IMG/VR virus record: IMGVR_UViG_3300028735_000017
Span: 1 to 36,168 of that record
DNA from: a virus
DNA: 36,168 nucleotides
Strand: one strand, 5' to 3'
The position numbers and the translations under genes were made by a program. Shown in pieces: positions 1 to 36,168 of this stretch. Below the pieces are notes generated by a model, which had not been told where the DNA came from, made no database searches, and saw only the letters and a list, made by a program, of their open reading frames with translations. Every line of letters starts with the position of its first letter. Position 1 is the stretch's first letter.

Positions 1-771
1 AAGCGTAAATTTAATGTTAGTTTTTTCAAAAAGCCAGTTCATCGTGTTTTCGATTTCGGCGTCTGAGTAGCCTTTAAGGTTTCCAGCCGCCCGCAGGTCT
101 CTTTTCAGCGCCCGCCGAAACTTTTCTCTGTTGTCAAACTGAAATCCTTTGAATAACCAGTAAAGGTGAATTATTTGTAAATCTCTCCTTTTAGAGGTTT
201 TTAACTTTTCAATTTCTTTTTGAAAATCCCACTGCGAGCTTTGCTCGCTAGATACGTTAGTATCTATATTCTTATCATTCTTATTATCATTCTTGTTTGT
301 TCCGATTTGAGTCCCATCTGCGTCCTCATTTGAGTCCGATTTGAGTCCAACTTGCTGATTTTCTTTTGTTATTTTAGGCTTGTTTATCGTATATTTTCCG
401 TCTTTTTTGAGTTCAACTTGTTCACTCTTACCCCCCCCTAATTTGAGTCCAACTTGATATTTATTCCAGTTTTTTAGCTTAACTATCGTGTATTTGTTGG
501 TTTTTTTGAGCTCAACTTCTCCTTCTTTCTCTAAAAACTCTAGCCAATACCAGATTGTTGATTTAGCCATCCCTAAAAATTCACTTGCTTTTTTACTTCC
601 CATGACAAAAGCTCCTTCTTCTATTTTTAGCTTCTGACGACCAAGTAGGATTGTTTTTTCTTTGTGGTTCGCCTTTAAAAGACACCATATCCATACTTTT
701 AATCCCTTTTCATTTTGGAATACTAGGCTCGTCAACAGCTTGCGGTACAGTTTAATCCAGCCATTATTCAT
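1..771 (-). CDS. Replication initiator, copy A (3' end cut by window edge)
   Basis: Not closed by a stop: the frame runs off the left edge. It starts at ATG 769-771, giving MNNGWIKLYRKLL. The first ~100 residues look like the winged-helix domain of phage replisome organisers (VWIWCLLKANHK, then KKASEFLGMAKSTIWYWLEF as the helix-turn-helix). A polar linker follows, and the last part is nearly identical to the protein at 34698-35429, in the same frame. Expected role: binds the phage origin and recruits host helicase or loader. The linker DNA (306-518) holds six iteron-like repeats, an arrangement like the origin inside lambda gene O. The N-terminal part differs strongly from the right-hand copy while the C-terminal part does not. 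Family assignment is by motif and layout; confidence in a replication role is good, exact family less so. Confidence 0.75.
   Translation of the reverse strand, partial: MNNGWIKLYRKLLTSLVFQNEKGLKVWIWCLLKANHKEKTILLGRQKLKIEEGAFVMGSKKASEFLGMAKSTIWYWLEFLEKEGEVELKKTNKYTIVKLKNWNKYQVGLKLGGGKSEQVELKKDGKYTINKPKITKENQQVGLKSDSNEDADGTQIGTNKNDNKNDKNIDTNVSSEQSSQWDFQKEIEKLKTSKRRDLQIIHLYWLFKGFQFDNREKFRRALKRDLRAAGNLKGYSDAEIENTMNWLFEKTNIKFTL
306..518. repeat. Iteron-like repeats within initiator gene, copy A
   Basis: Six copies of a sequence close to TTTGAGTCCAACTTG on the + strand, starting near 306, 328, 339, 404, 441 and 504. In the protein they appear as recurring QVGLK, QVELK and EVELK. They lie between the DNA-binding domain and the conserved C-terminal part. 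Candidate initiator-binding sites forming an origin inside the gene; function is inferred from placement. Confidence 0.6.
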
Positions 772-775
772 AAAA

Positions 776-873
776 TTACAACCAAAAAGGACTAGGCAAC
801 AAACCGCAAAGTATGCACACCTAGTCCTTTTTGGCGATAATTGATTGTAAGGCGGTTTGTTATTGTGTGCATA
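776..873. other. Interleaved triple inverted-repeat element, copy A
   Basis: Three arm pairs in the order a-b-c-a'-b'-c', each pair perfectly complementary. Pair a: CCAAAAAGGACTAGG (782-796) with 820-834, 15 bp. Pair b: AACAAACCGC (798-807) with 852-861, 10 bp. Pair c: TATGCACA (812-819) with 866-873, 8 bp, extendable by one. An outer TTACAA (776-781) also matches TTGTAA (845-850). The pairs cross one another, so as RNA or single-stranded DNA this is a pseudoknot-type or switching structure. It sits directly upstream of the initiator start. A second copy with different arm sequences is at 35739-35841. Confidence 0.8.
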
Positions 874-955
874 AATTTATATTACAAGCTAATGGCATCA
901 GATTTCTAGAATAGTGTCAAATGAAGTTATCCACAACATCTTTGCCTCTAGAAGC
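866..955. promoter_or_regulatory. Conserved spacer with DnaA box, origin candidate (copy A)
   Basis: About 90 noncoding bases that are identical in the right-hand copy (35834-35923), although the neighbouring NinB-like coding sequence carries several substitutions. It contains a consensus DnaA box TTATCCACA at 927-935, the palindrome TTCTAGAA, and on the - strand a TTGACA (915-920) without a convincing -10. Together with the adjacent inverted repeats and iterons this suggests part of a replication origin or control region. Confidence 0.55.
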
Positions 956-1405
956 CTAAAGATTATCTATCGCGGATTCTATGCTTGGAAATGCTGGAAA
1001 ATCGACCTCGCCGTTGGTTCGTTCAGTGATTATTCGGTTAAGATGGTCGTAAATCAAATCAATGTCTTGAGTTTTCCCGAGCTGAGTGGTTGATTTTTTG
1101 CCTAGTAAAGCCTTTTGAAGTGGTCTCCAGAGGTATTCTTTTACGCTGTAAGGCGTCCAGCTTAGCTCAACTTCCCGCCTTATTAAGTGCCGCATATCAA
1201 AATGCTTGTCATTGAGTTCGTCCGCTAGGAGCGTGAAAAACAGATGCAAGGCGGAGTTCTGCTGGAGCGTGCGGACGGATTTTACTGGTTTTACATCAAT
1301 TACCTCAAAGCCAGTCTCTTTAGCTTTCTGCTTGGCTTTTTGAAGTCCTTCAGCTAGGGTTTCCGCTTTAACTGAAATTATAATTTTAGCTTCAAAAGTT
1401 TTCAT
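956..1405 (-). CDS. NinB-like recombination protein
   Basis: 149 aa. The N-terminal third (KTFEAKIIISVKAETLAEGLQ) is a beta-alpha module. The remainder (RTLQQNSALHLFFTLLADEL, then WTPYSVKEYLWRPLQKAL and STTQL) has the pattern of the NinB/Orf-type recombination-mediator family found in many phages. Members of that family bind single-stranded DNA and assist phage recombination. The gene follows an SSB-like gene with TAATG overlap, which fits a replication-recombination operon. A partial near-identical copy is at the right end of the window (35925-36168). Family call is by pattern and could be wrong in detail. Confidence 0.6.
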   Translation of the reverse strand: MKTFEAKIIISVKAETLAEGLQKAKQKAKETGFEVIDVKPVKSVRTLQQNSALHLFFTLLADELNDKHFDMRHLIRREVELSWTPYSVKEYLWRPLQKALLGKKSTTQLGKTQDIDLIYDHLNRIITERTNGEVDFPAFPSIESAIDNL

Positions 1406-7605: not shown

Positions 7606-10455
7606 TTATAATTCTAAATAATTATTGTTTCCAAGATAAATTGCCATCTTACCCCGATTGACGATAAATATCTTTTTAATCGCTCCGATATACTGAACTG
7701 GAGCTTGGATAGTTACATCTGAAGTTGTTGTTATAATGGTCGGATTTATTATGGAAAATGTCGCCAAACTCTCACCGGCCAAGATTTCTTCATTGTCGTT
7801 GAGAGTAAGCAATGGCTGGACGGTGGAAAAATTGGCCTCTTGAATCGGAACAGTGGCAGAGACTGATTTTCCCGTGATGATTACTGGAGTGAGAGTTGAA
7901 AATGTTCCTGATTCTATTGCTGGACTTATGGATATACTCCGAGTCGTTGAAATTATGGCTTCTGGTTGACTAAATGTCCCCGATTGGATGGCAGGTGAAA
8001 TTGATATGTTTCCCCCCGATTCAATGGATGGAGAAATAGTTTCAATCACTCCGCTTTGGATATTCGGTGATATTGAAACATTTTTGGATGTCGTGATTAC
8101 GGGAGAAAGAGTCGCAAAAGCGGATGATTGAATGGGGGTTGATATTGAAACATTTTTGGATGTCGTAATGACAGGAACAAGCGTATTGAGTGCCCCTGTT
8201 TGAATCGCAGCCACTGGATTGATGTTTCTGGTAGTAGATACAACGGGGTCAATCGTGGCGAATGTAGCCGAGAAGATGGCGGGAGCGATTGTTTCGTTAT
8301 CGTTATTTGTAATCGAGGGCTGAATTGTGGCAAAGACTCCCGATTGCAAATCAGCTGATATATTTGTGCTTCTAGCGGTGGTGATGGTCGGAGTAAGTGT
8401 TGAAAATGTTCCGCTTACTATTGCCGAAGATACACTAGTATTTTTAGTTGTGGAAGCGCTTGAAGTTGGTTGCGAAAAAGCACCTGATTGAATTGCAATA
8501 ACCGTATTAACATTTCGTGTTACCGAAATTGTTGGAGTAAGCGTAGAAAATGTCCCTGAATTTATCCCTGCAGCGATTTCCTCATTGTCATTCAAAGTTA
8601 AAGAAGGCTGGATAGTTGAAAGGATAGCCAGTTCTACATTTGGGCTGATTGTTATATTTCTAGTAGTCGAAACTGTTGGGTTAAGAGTAGTAAGTGTTCC
8701 TGATTGAATCGCAGGAGACACAGACTCATTGTTATTTGCTGTAATGGTCGGGGCGAATTGTGCAAATTGAGCAGATTGCAAATCGGCATTGATTTCCATA
8801 TTTACCGCACTGGCGGTGATGATTGTCGGGTCTAGCGTGCTGAATGTTCCTGATTGAATGGCGGGTGTACTGGAAACATTTCTGGTTGTGATGGTTGTCG
8901 AGGTGGGTTGAGCGAAAATACCTGAATTTATTGCTGGAGAAACTGAAACATTCCTCGTGGTTGAAATTACGGGGTTTAGTGTAGTTGAAACGAAAGATTG
9001 AGGCGTTACCGAAACCGAAACGTTTTTTGTAGTTGAGACAGTCGCTTGCGGTTGCGAAAACGCTCCACTAAAAATAGCAGGTGAAATTTCCTCGTTGTCA
9101 TTAAGCGTCAAAGAGGGTTGGATTGTGGTAAAAGTTCCACTTTGAAGTGTCGCCGCAATATTGGGGTTTCGTGTCGTAGTTATTGTCGGCGATGGTATCG
9201 TAAAAGACGCTGATTCTATTGGTGGACTATTAGAGGTCGAAGTTTCTGCCGTAACTGTAGGGGCAAGAGTCGCAAAAGACGAAGCAAGAATAGCCACTGA
9301 AACAGTGATATTTCTTACTCCAGTTACGACTATGTTTAAGGTTGCCGAAACAAAACTTTGAATCGTGGCGGCAATAGTAGCACTTCGAGTCGTCGTAACT
9401 GTTGGCGTTAAAGTTGAAGAAGTAAAAGACTCCGAAGAAGAAACATTGATTGTAACATTTGTTCCTCCGCTTGCTGTTGTGAAGCTCCTTATACTACTCC
9501 ACTTTCCCCAAGTGTTACTTCCTGATGGGTCAATGGCTCTTACTCTCCAGTAATAGGTAGTATCGGGTTGTAGTCCTGCATCTGATTGAACTGAGTAAGT
9601 TATTTCATTTCCTGATGGCCAAGGGTGAGGGTCGCCTGTGCCTGAGAAATGAGAGGGAGATTCAGTAGAGGAAAGGACATCAAAAAAAATAGTTTTTCTA
9701 TTTATCGCAACATTTACTGGATTTTCAGGCGATGCTCCCGAAATGCTGTCTGGTGTAATTGGGCAAGTTCCACCAAAAGTGGCTGTACTGTTAAATTTGA
9801 AAACCAAATCTTCTGTGAATCCATCTGAGTTGAGATTGGTACAGTTATACCAGCAACTATATAGAAAATAACTACCGACGCTAATAATGCCACTTGGGAG
9901 ATTAAACCCCGAAGGCATTGTAGTAAGGGATGTGCAGTAATACCAGCAACTATCTAGGAAAGAATCACCGGCACTAGTAATGCCACTTGGGAGATTAAAT
10001 CCAGAAGGCATTGTAGTGAGGGATGAGCAGTCAGCCCAGCAGTTACCTAGGAAATTACTACCGACACTAGTAATGCCACTCGGGAGGTTAAATCCAGAAG
10101 GCATTGTAGTGAGGGATGTGCATTCAGCCCAGCAGTTATATAGGAAATAATCACCGACGGTGGTGCCTAAATCAGTCTCATTGAAATAAACTCCTGTGCA
10201 AGCGTTTATGGCAGTAATTCCATAATAGGAATGTGTCAAGACATTGTTTCCTGATTTATTCCAATAATTCCCAATTTCCCATTCGCCCGTAGAGGTAATA
10301 TTGACTTGTCCGTTAGTAGTTTCTATCCACGTTGTATCACCTTTTTTTCGGTAATAAAGAGAAAAAGAAGTAACCACATTAGTACTACTCCCTCTATAAG
10401 CTCGCAGAGTGAATGTTCCTGTTGAAGTCCAATTGCAAGTTGTAATAAAATCCAT
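7606..10455 (-). CDS. Large repetitive virion surface protein (adhesin or fibre)
   Basis: 949 aa. Residues ~1-100: beta-rich, Cys/Trp-containing start. ~100-220: four repeats of 31 residues (CTSLTTMPSGFNLPSG core), similar to BspA-type leucine-rich surface repeats. ~245-330: a region ending LQPDTTYYWRVRAIDPSG and WGKWSSIRSFTT, the second half of an Fn3-like domain. ~335-910: some 20 degenerate units of ~25 residues (SPAIQSGTFSTLTPTITTTR), Ser/Thr-rich and poor in charge, probably a long beta structure. The C-terminal ~30 residues differ (IKKIFIVNRGKMAIYL). Likely a host-binding or capsid-surface protein. The start has no good ribosome site, and the reading frame is the same as that of the upstream gene, with one TAA between. 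Confidence 0.7.
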   Translation of the reverse strand: MDFITTCNWTSTGTFTLRAYRGSSTNVVTSFSLYYRKKGDTTWIETTNGQVNITSTGEWEIGNYWNKSGNNVLTHSYYGITAINACTGVYFNETDLGTTVGDYFLYNCWAECTSLTTMPSGFNLPSGITSVGSNFLGNCWADCSSLTTMPSGFNLPSGITSAGDSFLDSCWYYCTSLTTMPSGFNLPSGIISVGSYFLYSCWYNCTNLNSDGFTEDLVFKFNSTATFGGTCPITPDSISGASPENPVNVAINRKTIFFDVLSSTESPSHFSGTGDPHPWPSGNEITYSVQSDAGLQPDTTYYWRVRAIDPSGSNTWGKWSSIRSFTTASGGTNVTINVSSSESFTSSTLTPTVTTTRSATIAATIQSFVSATLNIVVTGVRNITVSVAILASSFATLAPTVTAETSTSNSPPIESASFTIPSPTITTTRNPNIAATLQSGTFTTIQPSLTLNDNEEISPAIFSGAFSQPQATVSTTKNVSVSVTPQSFVSTTLNPVISTTRNVSVSPAINSGIFAQPTSTTITTRNVSSTPAIQSGTFSTLDPTIITASAVNMEINADLQSAQFAQFAPTITANNNESVSPAIQSGTLTTLNPTVSTTRNITISPNVELAILSTIQPSLTLNDNEEIAAGINSGTFSTLTPTISVTRNVNTVIAIQSGAFSQPTSSASTTKNTSVSSAIVSGTFSTLTPTITTARSTNISADLQSGVFATIQPSITNNDNETIAPAIFSATFATIDPVVSTTRNINPVAAIQTGALNTLVPVITTSKNVSISTPIQSSAFATLSPVITTSKNVSISPNIQSGVIETISPSIESGGNISISPAIQSGTFSQPEAIISTTRSISISPAIESGTFSTLTPVIITGKSVSATVPIQEANFSTVQPLLTLNDNEEILAGESLATFSIINPTIITTTSDVTIQAPVQYIGAIKKIFIVNRGKMAIYLGNNNYLEL
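9838..10155 (-). repeat. Four 93-base coding repeats (LRR-like)
   Basis: Direct repeats of 93 bases encoding units of 31 aa. The stretch for SLTTMPSGFNLPSGI is nearly invariant. Variable residues cluster around the CW..C core (YNCWAEC, GNCWADC, DSCWYYC, YSCWYNC). The pattern fits a surface-displayed repeat domain. Confidence 0.8.
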
Positions 10456-33756: not shown

Positions 33757-34272
33757 TTAATTTCTCTTTATCTTAATTGGGTTATAATGACTTCCATTAA
33801 CTCTGATATATCCCTTTACATAGATTCCACCCTCTGCAGAGATGTAGTCCCCTGCAGAGATATAACCCTTCGCAGAGATATCGCCCTCTGCAGAGATGTA
33901 ACCCTTCGCAGAGATATCGCCCTCTGCAGAGATATCGCCCTTAGCAGAGATGTAGCCCTCTGCATAGATATTGCCCTCTGCATAGACGTAGCCCCTCGCA
34001 GAGATGTCGCCCTTCGCAGAGATATTTCCGTTCGCAGAGATGTAGCCCTCTGCAGAGATGTTGCCCCTCGCATAGATATTTGTTTCAAACCGACACCAAC
34101 CAGTTTTCGCTATCTCTAAATTGCCTTCAACATTGGTTAAATCTTTATTTCCGCAATACACTCCATCTTTGAAATCCTGTTTTGTTAGTTTTATTGTGTC
34201 CATAGTTTTAGACATTGTTAATTTATCACCTATGTTGTTTTTTTGCATATATTTTCTAAAAAAACTAAACAT
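33757..34272 (-). CDS. Hexapeptide-repeat (beta-solenoid-like) protein
   Basis: 171 aa; ATG 34272 overlaps the upstream stop as TAATG, an in-frame ATG at 34215 is preceded by AGGTGAT. N-terminal ~60 residues are globular (LTKQDFKDGVYCGNKDLTNV). From ~68 to 155 the sequence is a six-residue repeat, ISAEGD / ISAKGY / ISARGY, with Ile at every sixth position and Gly two before it, as in left-handed beta-helices or bactofilin-like solenoids. A charged and aromatic end caps it (YIRVNGSHYNPIKIKRN). Could bind a surface or polymerise; function unknown. Confidence 0.65.
   Translation of the reverse strand: MFSFFRKYMQKNNIGDKLTMSKTMDTIKLTKQDFKDGVYCGNKDLTNVEGNLEIAKTGWCRFETNIYARGNISAEGYISANGNISAKGDISARGYVYAEGNIYAEGYISAKGDISAEGDISAKGYISAEGDISAKGYISAGDYISAEGGIYVKGYIRVNGSHYNPIKIKRN
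33834..34082. repeat. 18-base tandem repeats coding for hexapeptides
   Basis: About 14 units of 18 bases near GCAGAGATGTAGCCCTCT on the + strand, with conserved GCAGAGAT and variable last bases. Each unit encodes six residues of the solenoid. Because the period is a multiple of three, the other frames are also open over the array, which creates spurious ORFs on both strands. Confidence 0.85.
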
Positions 34273-34440: not shown

Positions 34441-34701
34441 TTAGTCTAAGGGTCGAGGAAAAAGGTTATTTGCCCGATAGTAGTTATCAAGTTGTCTTAA
34501 CTCTTCGTCGGAAAGCAAATAGCAATCATTTGGACAAGCATCTAAATCTGATTGGTTATCTTGAGCGGCGGTTAGAAAGGCCCCTTTTACCATTCGGTTC
34601 GTGCCGTAACCTTCGAAACCCAATGAGCAATAGATTGGATTTTTAGCATAAAAGCTCCATTCTTTCTGGTTAAAGTTTTTTCTGACAAATAATGCTCTCA
34701 T
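34441..34701 (-). CDS. Hypothetical protein after initiator
   Basis: 86 aa, ATG overlapping the initiator stop (ATGA). MRALFVRKNFNQKEWSFYAK, FEGYGTNRMVKGAFLTAAQD, CPNDCYLLSDEELRQLDNYY. One CxxxC (CPNDC). A mixed fold; no motif I know. Always-adjacent coupling with the initiator suggests a replication-related role, by position only. Confidence 0.55.
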   Translation of the reverse strand: MRALFVRKNFNQKEWSFYAKNPIYCSLGFEGYGTNRMVKGAFLTAAQDNQSDLDACPNDCYLLSDEELRQLDNYYRANNLFPRPLD

Positions 34702-35429
34702 TTTTTTATTGGCTCGAGGTTGGCTAAATTTTCGTCGATGAATTTATGCACAGTCTCAAGCGTAAATTTAATGTTAGTTTTTTCAAAAAGCCAGTTCATC
34801 GTGTTTTCGATTTCGGCGTCTGAGTAGCCTTTAAGGTTTCCAGCCGCCCGCAGGTCTCTTTTCAGCGCCCGCCGAAACTTTTCTTTGTTGTCAAACTGAA
34901 ATCCTTTGAATAACCAGTAAAGGTGAATTATTTGTAAATCTCTCCTTTTAGAGGTTTTTAACTTTTCAATTTCTTTTTGAAAATCCCACTGCGAGCTTTG
35001 CTCGCTAGATACGTTAGTATCTATATTCTTATCATTCTTATCATTCTTGTTTGTGTCGGCTTGTTGTTGCTTTGTTGTTGCTTTGTTGTCGGATTTGTTG
35101 TTGCCGTTTTGATATTTTTCCCATTTTACTATTGTAATAAGCCTAAATTTGGTTGTCTTTTGTTGTCGGATTTGATGTTGGGCTTCTAAGAATTTCAGAA
35201 TATCCTCGACAGTTGACTCTGGGATCCCCGTTTCTTCGGATAATTTTTTTCTTCCTGTAATAAGTTGGCCCCCGTTTATTATAATAATTCCGCCATTCCA
35301 CATAATTTTTTGAGGCTTATGGTTGGCTTTTAGTAGTAAGACGATCCACAGCCACGCATATTGAGGTTTTTTGGCGATTGGGTTGTTTAATAAACATCTA
35401 TGAAGCTTTACATACCCTAAACTTTCCAT
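34698..35429 (-). CDS. Replication initiator, copy B (complete)
   Basis: 243 aa from ATG 35429, which aligns with the start of copy A; an ATG at 35465 would add 12 residues. Winged-helix N-terminal domain (LGYVKLHRCLLNNPIAKKPQ, WLWIVLLLKANHKPQ, LITGRKKLSEETGIPESTVE) as in phage replisome organisers, polar linker rich in Gln/Asn/Lys, and a C-terminal helical domain (LQIIHLYWLFKGFQFDNKEK, YSDAEIENTMNWLFEKTNIK) shared almost exactly with copy A, where the last ~20 residues are cut by the window edge. The linker DNA carries a different repeat family from copy A. Expected to bind the origin and load replication proteins. Confidence 0.78.
   Translation of the reverse strand: MESLGYVKLHRCLLNNPIAKKPQYAWLWIVLLLKANHKPQKIMWNGGIIIINGGQLITGRKKLSEETGIPESTVEDILKFLEAQHQIRQQKTTKFRLITIVKWEKYQNGNNKSDNKATTKQQQADTNKNDKNDKNIDTNVSSEQSSQWDFQKEIEKLKTSKRRDLQIIHLYWLFKGFQFDNKEKFRRALKRDLRAAGNLKGYSDAEIENTMNWLFEKTNIKFTLETVHKFIDENLANLEPIKK
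35051..35182. repeat. Iteron-like repeats within initiator gene, copy B
   Basis: Repeated TTTGTTGTTG and TTTGTTGTCGGATTTG on the + strand in two groups, 35051-35110 and 35150-35182. They occupy the same place in the gene as the copy A iterons (after the winged helix and at its end) but have a different sequence. Candidate binding sites of copy B initiator. Confidence 0.5.
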
Positions 35430-35698
35430 AGTCTTTTTACCATTTTTAGCGTTTCTTTTGCGCATTTTACCACATTTACCATCTCCCGGTCACTTATAGT
35501 CCCATCGTTTTCACATTCTGATAAACTAATCATCTTCTTTAAATTTTTTTCAATATCGTCCCGATATTCTATTATAGTTTTTGCTTTGGGATTGGAGTTG
35601 TGAAAGACTAAAAGTCCTAAAAGAGCGCTTGAAAACATTGATAATCCGGAAGCCACGCCTTTGTTAGTTATTTCTATTCTTAGTTTTTCTTCTTTCAC
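35417..35698 (-). CDS. Small protein present only in copy B cassette
   Basis: 93 aa, GTG start. MKEEKLRIEITNKGVASGLS, a hydrophobic stretch (MFSSALLGLLVFHN) and a helical rest (YRDDIEKNLKKMISLSECEN, DREMVNVVKCAKETLKMVKR). Its stop overlaps the initiator start. A promoter-like TTGTAA-16-TATAAT lies just upstream on the - strand. Copy A has no counterpart. Could be a regulator of the initiator; no motif supports this. Confidence 0.55.
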   Translation of the reverse strand: MKEEKLRIEITNKGVASGLSMFSSALLGLLVFHNSNPKAKTIIEYRDDIEKNLKKMISLSECENDGTISDREMVNVVKCAKETLKMVKRLWKV

Positions 35699-35738
35699 TT
35701 TTTTAATTTAATTATAAATTTTACAACCTATTTTACAA

Positions 35739-35841
35739 CCTAAAAGAGGCTGCCCGTAACACCAGCGAAGATGCACACACGAACAGCCTCTTGTAGGCGA
35801 TAAAGTTTTTCTAGTTGATTGCTGGTGTTATTTGTGTGCAT
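35739..35841. other. Interleaved triple inverted-repeat element, copy B
   Basis: Same a-b-c-a'-b'-c' order as copy A. Pair a: CCTA-A-AAGAGGCTG (35739-35752) with 35784-35797, one mismatch. Pair b: TAACACCAGC (35757-35766) with GCTGGTGTTA (35821-35830), perfect. Pair c: ATGCACACA (35771-35779) with TGTGTGCAT (35833-35841), perfect. Arms a and b share no sequence with copy A, but pairing is kept; arm c and the flanks TTACAACC and GGCGATAA are conserved. A tandem TTTTACAACCTA lies just left of it on the + strand (35731 region). Confidence 0.8.
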
Positions 35842-35924
35842 AAATTTATATTACAAGCTAATGGCATCAGATTTCTAGAATAGTGTCAAATGAAGTTATC
35901 CACAACATCTTTGCCTCTAGAAGA
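35834..35924. promoter_or_regulatory. Conserved spacer with DnaA box, origin candidate (copy B)
   Basis: Identical to 866-955, with the DnaA box TTATCCACA at 35896-35904. It joins the NinB-like gene to the inverted-repeat element. Confidence 0.55.
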
Positions 35925-36168
35925 CTAAAGATTATCTCTAGCGGATTCTATACTTGGAAATGCTGGAAAGTCGACCTCGCCGTTGGTTCGTTCAGTGATT
36001 ATTCGATTGAGATGATCGTAAATCAAATCAATGTCTTGAGCTTTCCCGAGCTGAGTGGTTGATTTTTTGCCTAGTAAAGCCTTTTGAAGTGGTCTCCAGA
36101 GGTATTCTTTTACGCTGTAAGGCGTCCAGCTTAGCTCAACTTCCCGCCTTATTAAGTGCCGCATATCA
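35925..36168 (-). CDS. NinB-like protein, partial second copy
   Basis: Cut at the right edge; the frame is open to the end of the window. The visible 80 residues (MRHLIRREVELSWTPYSVKE to FPSIESARDNL) differ from the protein at 956-1405 in two residues (GKAQ for GKTQ, ARDNL for AIDNL) despite several silent base changes. Same gene order and spacing to the origin spacer as on the left side. Likely the same gene in the other strain or the other repeat copy. Confidence 0.8.
   Translation of the reverse strand, partial: DMRHLIRREVELSWTPYSVKEYLWRPLQKALLGKKSTTQLGKAQDIDLIYDHLNRIITERTNGEVDFPAFPSIESARDNL

Follow-up and report, generated by a model that had tools for sequence, protein, structure and literature searches.

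A putative pseudoknotted attenuator in the leader of phage replication-initiator mRNAs

Crossing helices ahead of the replication initiator

Three inverted repeats whose helices all cross one another lie at positions 776-873 and again at 35733-35841 of an IMG/VR virus record of 36,168 bases (hereinafter the window, meaning the whole stretch of DNA analyzed), and their presence at both places is a confirmed observation. Judging from sequence, we see about an even chance that the element is the 5' leader of the replication initiator mRNA and acts as a pseudoknotted transcription attenuator, with an ON/OFF logic of docking and ribosome loading. Attenuation is strongly supported; terminator activity, leader translation and the trigger are the parts that we infer. 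The architecture, its recurrence in other phages, the covariation of its arms and its sense strand are evident from the sequences compared below.

On the plus strand, the arms follow the interleaved order a-b-c-a'-b'-c', as an earlier note on this DNA had described; on the minus strand, which is the initiator sense, the order is c b a c* b* a*. Read 5' to 3' along the minus strand, the copy at 776-873 (allele 1) starts with arm c (TATGCACAC, 865-873), which contains the AUG of a leader ORF (872-870), and continues with arm b (AACAAACCGC, 852-861), arm a with its base TTATCGCC as the 5' side of a terminator-like hairpin (820-840), arms c* (812-820) and b* (798-807) in the hairpin loop, and arm a* (CCTAGTCCTTTTT) with its base GGTTGTAA as the 3' side (776-796), which ends 4 nt before the initiator ATG. 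All 15 positions of arm a form Watson-Crick pairs (782-796/820-834), as do 10 of 10 in b (798-807/852-861) and 9 of 9 in c (812-820/865-873); base 820 could pair in either a or c*. Allele 2, also on the minus strand, consists of arm c with the leader AUG (ATGCACACA, 35833-35841), arm b (TAACACCAGC, 35821-35830), arm a with base TTATCGCC (35780-35803), arms c* (35771-35779) and b* (35757-35766), and arm a* with base GGTTGTAA (35733-35756). Pairing is again complete in b (10 of 10) and c (9 of 9), and the core of a (35744-35752/35784-35792) extends to 35741-35756/35780-35795 with minus-strand G.U pairs. The complementarity given in the note for b in both copies and for a in 776-873 was thus reproduced; arm c, which it had called conserved, is identical between the copies, and the conserved flanks were found to pair too.

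These flanks, TTATCGCC and GGTTGTAA, form 7 of 8 pairs, G.U included, in the minus-strand RNA versus 5 of 8 on the plus strand. Including this base, hairpin a of allele 1 has 21 positions, of which 18 are Watson-Crick and 2 are G.U pairs; in allele 2, the 24 positions include 18 Watson-Crick and 4 G.U pairs. With A.C mispairs absent from both, pairing is better in the minus-strand RNA than in the opposite strand. Minus-strand folding gave z values of -5.65 and -4.25. Between the alleles, both partners differ in 7 pairs of a and in 5 of the 9 pairs of b that were compared, with pairing intact; pairs were counted by structural register, because DNA alignment of the two alleles puts the arms out of register. 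The linkers of alleles 1 and 2, respectively, are 3 and 2 nt from c to b, 0 nt in both from a to c*, CUUU and CUUC from c* to b*, and 1 and 0 nt from b* to a*. With linkers of 0-4 nt, helices b (10 bp) and c (9 bp) would lie side by side in a compact three-way junction.

Triple-crossing sets with perfect arms of at least 8 nt contain 34 paired bases in total at 776-873 and 28 at the second allele. Among 200 dinucleotide shuffles of the whole window, none approached these values: the maximum was 25 paired bases, and 193 shuffles contained no triple-crossing set.

Two alleles of one circular-genome locus

The ends of the contig overlap, with window 1-300 matching 34758-35054 (98.7%) and 858-1199 matching 35826-36168 (97%). 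These overlaps indicate that the contig covers one full turn of a circular genome plus ~1.4 kb, in which the second pass represents the other allele, so 776-873 and 35733-35841 are alternative alleles of one locus and not two sites. The covariation that the earlier note had seen between copies therefore holds as pairing kept through changes on both sides, but it is covariation between alleles of a single locus.

Near-identical flanks enclose a swapped cassette (window 1-1199 versus 34758-36168) of the leader, the N-terminal half of the initiator and its internal repeats, so that the half of the initiator that binds DNA is exchanged along with the leader. Both initiators (allele 1, 1-771, minus strand, its 3' end running on across the contig joint; allele 2, 34698-35465, minus strand) match DnaD-like helicase loaders in PHROGs, and that of allele 2 also shows a weak match to Phage_rep_org_N. 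Allele 2 alone has a 93-aa ORF with a GTG start between leader and initiator (35417-35698, minus strand), for which Pfam and PHROG searches gave no match. A promoter-like TTGTAA-16-TATAAT was observed directly before this GTG (35738-35711, minus strand).

Direct repeats specific to each allele are located inside the initiator genes (295-518 and 35071-35195) and are likely to be initiator iterons, and hence the origin; they are of the TTTGAGTCCAACTTG type and the TTTGTTGTCGGATTTG type. When they were compared with the leader arms, none were seen among the arms. Across the window, nearly all genes are on the minus strand. The ORF at 33757-34272 is built of YISAEGDISAKG repeats with internal DNA repeats, reminiscent of a beta-solenoid, and a 949-aa ORF (7606-10455) with many degenerate repeats (SPAIQSGTFSTLNPTI type; DNA repeats at 9839-10158) is perhaps a tail or adhesion protein.

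Recurrence in other phage leaders

Searching IMG/VR for the exact DNA pattern (conserved flanks plus arm c) returned no match, and queries with the initiator C-terminus or the whole initiator returned no relatives. Relatives were found only with an alignment of initiator N-terminal domains, in viral contigs and genome assemblies. Upstream of these related initiators, crossing arms of unrelated sequence often lie directly before the start codon (~30 leaders), and the initiators of element-bearing phages share just ~26-65% identity. The recurrent order is a promoter, a 5' element (b, sometimes with c), hairpin a/a* with b* (and c*) in its loop, and then the initiator or a small ORF. The full series c b a c* b* a* is present in leaders L096, L204, and L257; in L172 and L245, the 5' arm is nested and in two parts, and the majority of the others have a single 5' arm. 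The earlier note had argued that pairing, or paired protein sites, matter, and its options included a pseudoknotted RNA of the initiator leader and an RNA for replication control. The recurrent layout and kept complementarity agree with a pseudoknotted leader RNA in which pairing matters and which plausibly controls replication, and the check that it had proposed on homologues with diverged arms found complementarity retained.

In 20 of 147 nonredundant loci, the leader was the best of ~41 windows of its own contig, versus 3.7 expected. A signature consisting of a U-tract hairpin and a crossing upstream arm (threshold -32) gave 24 sense matches in the 400 nt ahead of initiators, whereas the remaining 827 kb had 5; this enrichment of ~56-fold is partly circular, since the signature was designed after the first members had been seen. 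In antisense, the counts were 4 upstream of initiators versus 13 elsewhere. A crossing scan of whole loci without filters yielded 49 sense and 49 reverse-complement matches and was unspecific in GC-rich contigs, so the U-tract and spacing filters are required. L223, L276, L232, L150, and L341 meet some thresholds and were rejected, as they look like plain hairpins or GC-rich chance matches.

The signature scan newly revealed a further cluster, at 150-370 nt ahead of the initiator (L145, L190, L234, L236, L240, and L241; L115 is similar), with an ORF between leader and initiator as in allele 2 of the window. The intervening ORFs of these seven loci are small (54-72 aa), unrelated, and without a Pfam match where searched; in L091, a GIY-YIG ORF takes this place. 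In the close pair L236/L241, compensatory changes affect 3 pairs of the 5' hairpin and 2 pairs of the loop-loop helix b/b*; there are none when the partners are slid.

Among terminase relatives of the window phage, the module is mostly absent. The exception is L006, a 76% terminase relative whose initiator belongs to a different family (Lin1244_N) and precedes a DnaB-like gene. The L006 leader follows this plan too, with a leaderless-looking ORF (MYLKLIKLNNFTNRKEDLLCNLNNRKVSQ, ending in a stop) and an ACTTCAC arm crossing a long terminator hairpin, which was reached in 0 of 200 shuffles. The protein encoded at 956-1405, used as a query, returned 2 distant loci, both without the element. The initiator domain also occurs in named phages and plasmids, and in L086 and L087 the initiator lies close behind other genes. 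Separately, an arm c with ATGCACACA, whose leader peptide starts MHT, is common to the window (863-872 and 35832-35841) and the distant phage L204 (2377-2386).

Terminator, promoter and strand

The 3' ends of a* are T-rich, with 6.0 T per 10 positions versus 3.2 in the control (e.g., ..CCAGTCGGCTTTTTT in L204, ..TGGCCGGTTTTTTTT in L245, and ..AACGGATTTTTTT in L129), and mostly lie 9-34 nt ahead of the gene start. A stock terminator scan returned no leader terminator, because it permits only loops of 3-8 nt. The earlier note had recognized no terminator, tRNA or known riboswitch here; it lacked the terminator-like nature of hairpin a, as well as the allelic relation of the copies, the coincidence of the 5' arms with a leader ORF start, and the recurrence in ~30 phage leaders.

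Sigma70-like promoters were detected ahead of the 5' arm (Fisher combined p=1.6e-7), and the predicted transcription start sites are mostly within a few nt of the first arm. The same leaders scanned for antisense promoters gave no signal (Fisher p=0.42). In the window, the promoter is weak (p 0.24-0.31): a possible -10 box TAATAT (879-884, minus strand), 6 nt before the leader AUG, was recognized by inspection, lacks a good -35, is weak by PWM, and is not picked by the promoter scans. Several leaders carry a TATATTTG box instead of a sigma70-like promoter, which we take to resemble the Bacteroidota -7 element. An intrinsic terminator is thus predicted between the promoter and the first gene, the arrangement of a pyrBI-type attenuator.

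At non-Watson-Crick extension positions, 52 G.U versus 33 A.C were counted, an excess that lends modest support to the sense strand. The functional strand is the minus strand, in the sense of the initiator.

Leader ORFs and the hairpin subtype

In the subtype represented by the window, an ATG lies in or beside the 5' arm. The leader ORF of allele 1 (MHTITNRLTINYRQKGLGVHTLRFVA, 792-872, minus strand) has its stop within a*, and that of allele 2 (MHTNNTSNQLEKLYRLQEAVRVCIFAGVTGSLF, 35740-35841, minus strand) stops directly after the U-run of a*. The ATG frame is open as far as a* in 13 of 19 leaders, versus 4 and 4 for the other frames and 4.6 expected (P~2e-5), a count in which the ATG was picked by nearness to the arm after the first members had been seen and in which the closely related L121 and L129 are not independent. 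Six leader ORFs end before the terminator arm. The stops are often at the initiator start, with an ATGA overlap in L116, L121, and L129.

The predicted start site coincides with the A of the ATG in five leaders (L093, L098, L178, L204, and L245), and TAATAT-N6-ATG in the window, weak as this promoter is, would likewise place the start at the A of the ATG. An SD-like site precedes only 6 of 42 window genes, which suggests a host with SD-independent or leaderless starts and suits leaderless initiation here.

In L236, L241, L145, L115, L198, L106, and L190, a 5' hairpin presents b in its loop, and there is no useful leader ORF at the arm. A leader ORF that enters or passes the terminator, as in pyrBI-type attenuators, is thus found in the window subtype and not in the hairpin subtype. 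Since b in the hairpin subtype has no overlapping leader start codon, a ribosome switch cannot be universal; the common denominator is a 5' element that pairs with the terminator loop, of which the leader ORF is one elaboration.

Proposed mechanism and alternative explanations

In the proposed attenuator, the RNA would begin at or just before arm c or b. The terminator-like hairpin a/a* would follow ~20-35 nt on, hold the complements c* and b* in its loop, and end a few nt before the initiator or small ORF. With the 5' arms docked in the loop, all helices could coexist. Premature termination would limit the amount of initiator made, with the outcome set by whether the 5' end docks into the loop. 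In the window subtype, a near-leaderless ORF that enters the terminator has its AUG within the 5' arms, so ribosome loading and loop docking should compete. Docking would conceal the leader start codon and leave the putative terminator intact (OFF). A ribosome arriving first on the 5' AUG would keep the arms apart and trail RNA polymerase through the terminator, so that the initiator would be made (ON).

More broadly, and tentatively, at rather less than an even chance, such leaders may form a widespread and hitherto undescribed class of phage regulatory RNA. In this class, the 5' end of the initiator mRNA would dock in its own terminator loop as a tail, a kissing hairpin or a double pseudoknot, and thereby decide replication. 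One subtype would hide a leaderless start codon and thus sense ribosome availability, with arms diversifying as strain-specific immunity determinants.

The main rival, which we regard as somewhat unlikely, is that the leader yields an RNA acting in trans in immunity or copy control. Once terminated, at ~110-130 nt, this RNA would use its b*/c* loop or b/c tail to pair with nascent leaders from its own allele, thereby halting initiator expression, the arms diversifying for specificity. This would explain arm diversification between co-occurring strains. It is in keeping with the change of arms a and b between the co-occurring alleles along with the DNA-binding half of the initiator, and the P4 CI RNA and IsrK are precedents (PMC4825925). 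However, every complement is present in cis on one transcript and tightly spaced, and the linkers of 0-4 nt fit an intramolecular fold; there is no separate antisense promoter, and neither integrase nor repressor was recognized among the window ORFs searched. Less likely still, the docked RNA may be an antiterminator, in which b/b* precedes a* and slows the terminator and a factor (a phage protein, the initiator or a host signal) controls docking, or the fold may bind a protein or ligand. Because b* and c* are transcribed ahead of a*, docking can come first, and the hairpin subtype, without a leader ORF starting at b, fits this reading; yet the arms adjoin without overlap, which favors coexistence over exclusion, and a protein- or ligand-binding fold finds neither conserved sequence for a ligand pocket nor an Rfam match.

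Countertranscript attenuation, as in plasmids pT181 and pIP501, shares the type of target gene (a replication initiator) and a premature leader terminator, but it is improbable given the lack of an antisense promoter signal and the assignment of each arm to its own partner, no arm being shared by alternative helices apart from a small overlap in L178. A DNA-level feature is slightly more improbable. Inverted repeats do adjoin the initiator gene, and the earlier note had considered initiator half-sites and a folded single-stranded origin. Half-sites are unsupported because the arms differ from one another and each pairs only with its own complement, the iteron-like repeats being inside the gene and away from the leader; the origin is unsupported because the signature is sense-specific and preceded by promoters. 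The U-tracts and the excess of G.U over A.C at extension positions also argue against any DNA-level reading. Chance or an assembly artefact has a negligible probability: the second copy is present solely through self-overlap of the contig with a strain variant, but the shuffles and the ~30 further leaders contradict this explanation, which the homologues refute.

Significance and comparison with known systems

A compact RNA switch common to phages with strongly diverged initiators would provide a general and testable control point of replication, and any additional trans action of the arms could make them determinants of superinfection immunity. The element would also be an example, rare in nature, of three helices that all cross one another and are conserved as pairings alone. 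Covariance models cannot represent crossing helices. As almost no sequence is conserved, the element eludes covariance searches, and more such attenuators may be hidden. Rfam covariance models, including those for IsrK, C4, P4 CI-SeqA and riboswitches, gave no match at gathering or E-value thresholds. In the open PMC literature, to which the search was confined, no description of such a leader was found.

Like pyrBI, ampC is a translation-coupled attenuator of E. coli. As in these two systems, the leader ORF here overlaps a putative intrinsic terminator and ends near the first gene, and a closely following ribosome should block termination; the pyrBI terminator sits within its 135-bp leader peptide gene (PMC4824070). 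Unlike in pyrBI and ampC, the terminator loop here is complementary to the first part of the leader ORF (pseudoknot), the regulated gene would be a phage replication initiator, and the hairpin subtype lacks a leader ORF at the arm. The plasmid pT181 and pIP501 repC/repR antisense attenuators are similar in that initiator mRNA is attenuated, but here there is neither an antisense promoter nor mutually exclusive arm pairing. In mycobacteria, leaderless short ORFs (polycysteine uORFs; reference cited in PMC9031893) likewise govern a downstream operon; no amino-acid-specific codons were recognized here, and RNA docking would take their place.

Gifsy-1 IsrK, the P4 SeqA-CI RNA, and the P1 C4 antisense RNA share with the present element a phage leader RNA with internal complementarity, premature termination, and coupling to an upstream ORF. 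The P4 CI RNA pairs with seqA/seqC, causes premature termination and represses the P4 replication genes, and IsrK is produced by termination in its own leader, where an upstream ORF is coupled by AUGA (PMC4825925). P4 controls its own replication genes, as the window phage would. The present leader differs from all three in forming a single compact crossing fold in cis, in its topology and initiator type, and in matching no Rfam model. We regard it as a variant among attenuator leaders that has a real chance of being a new RNA class, and as probably a previously unrecognized on/off switch for phage replication.
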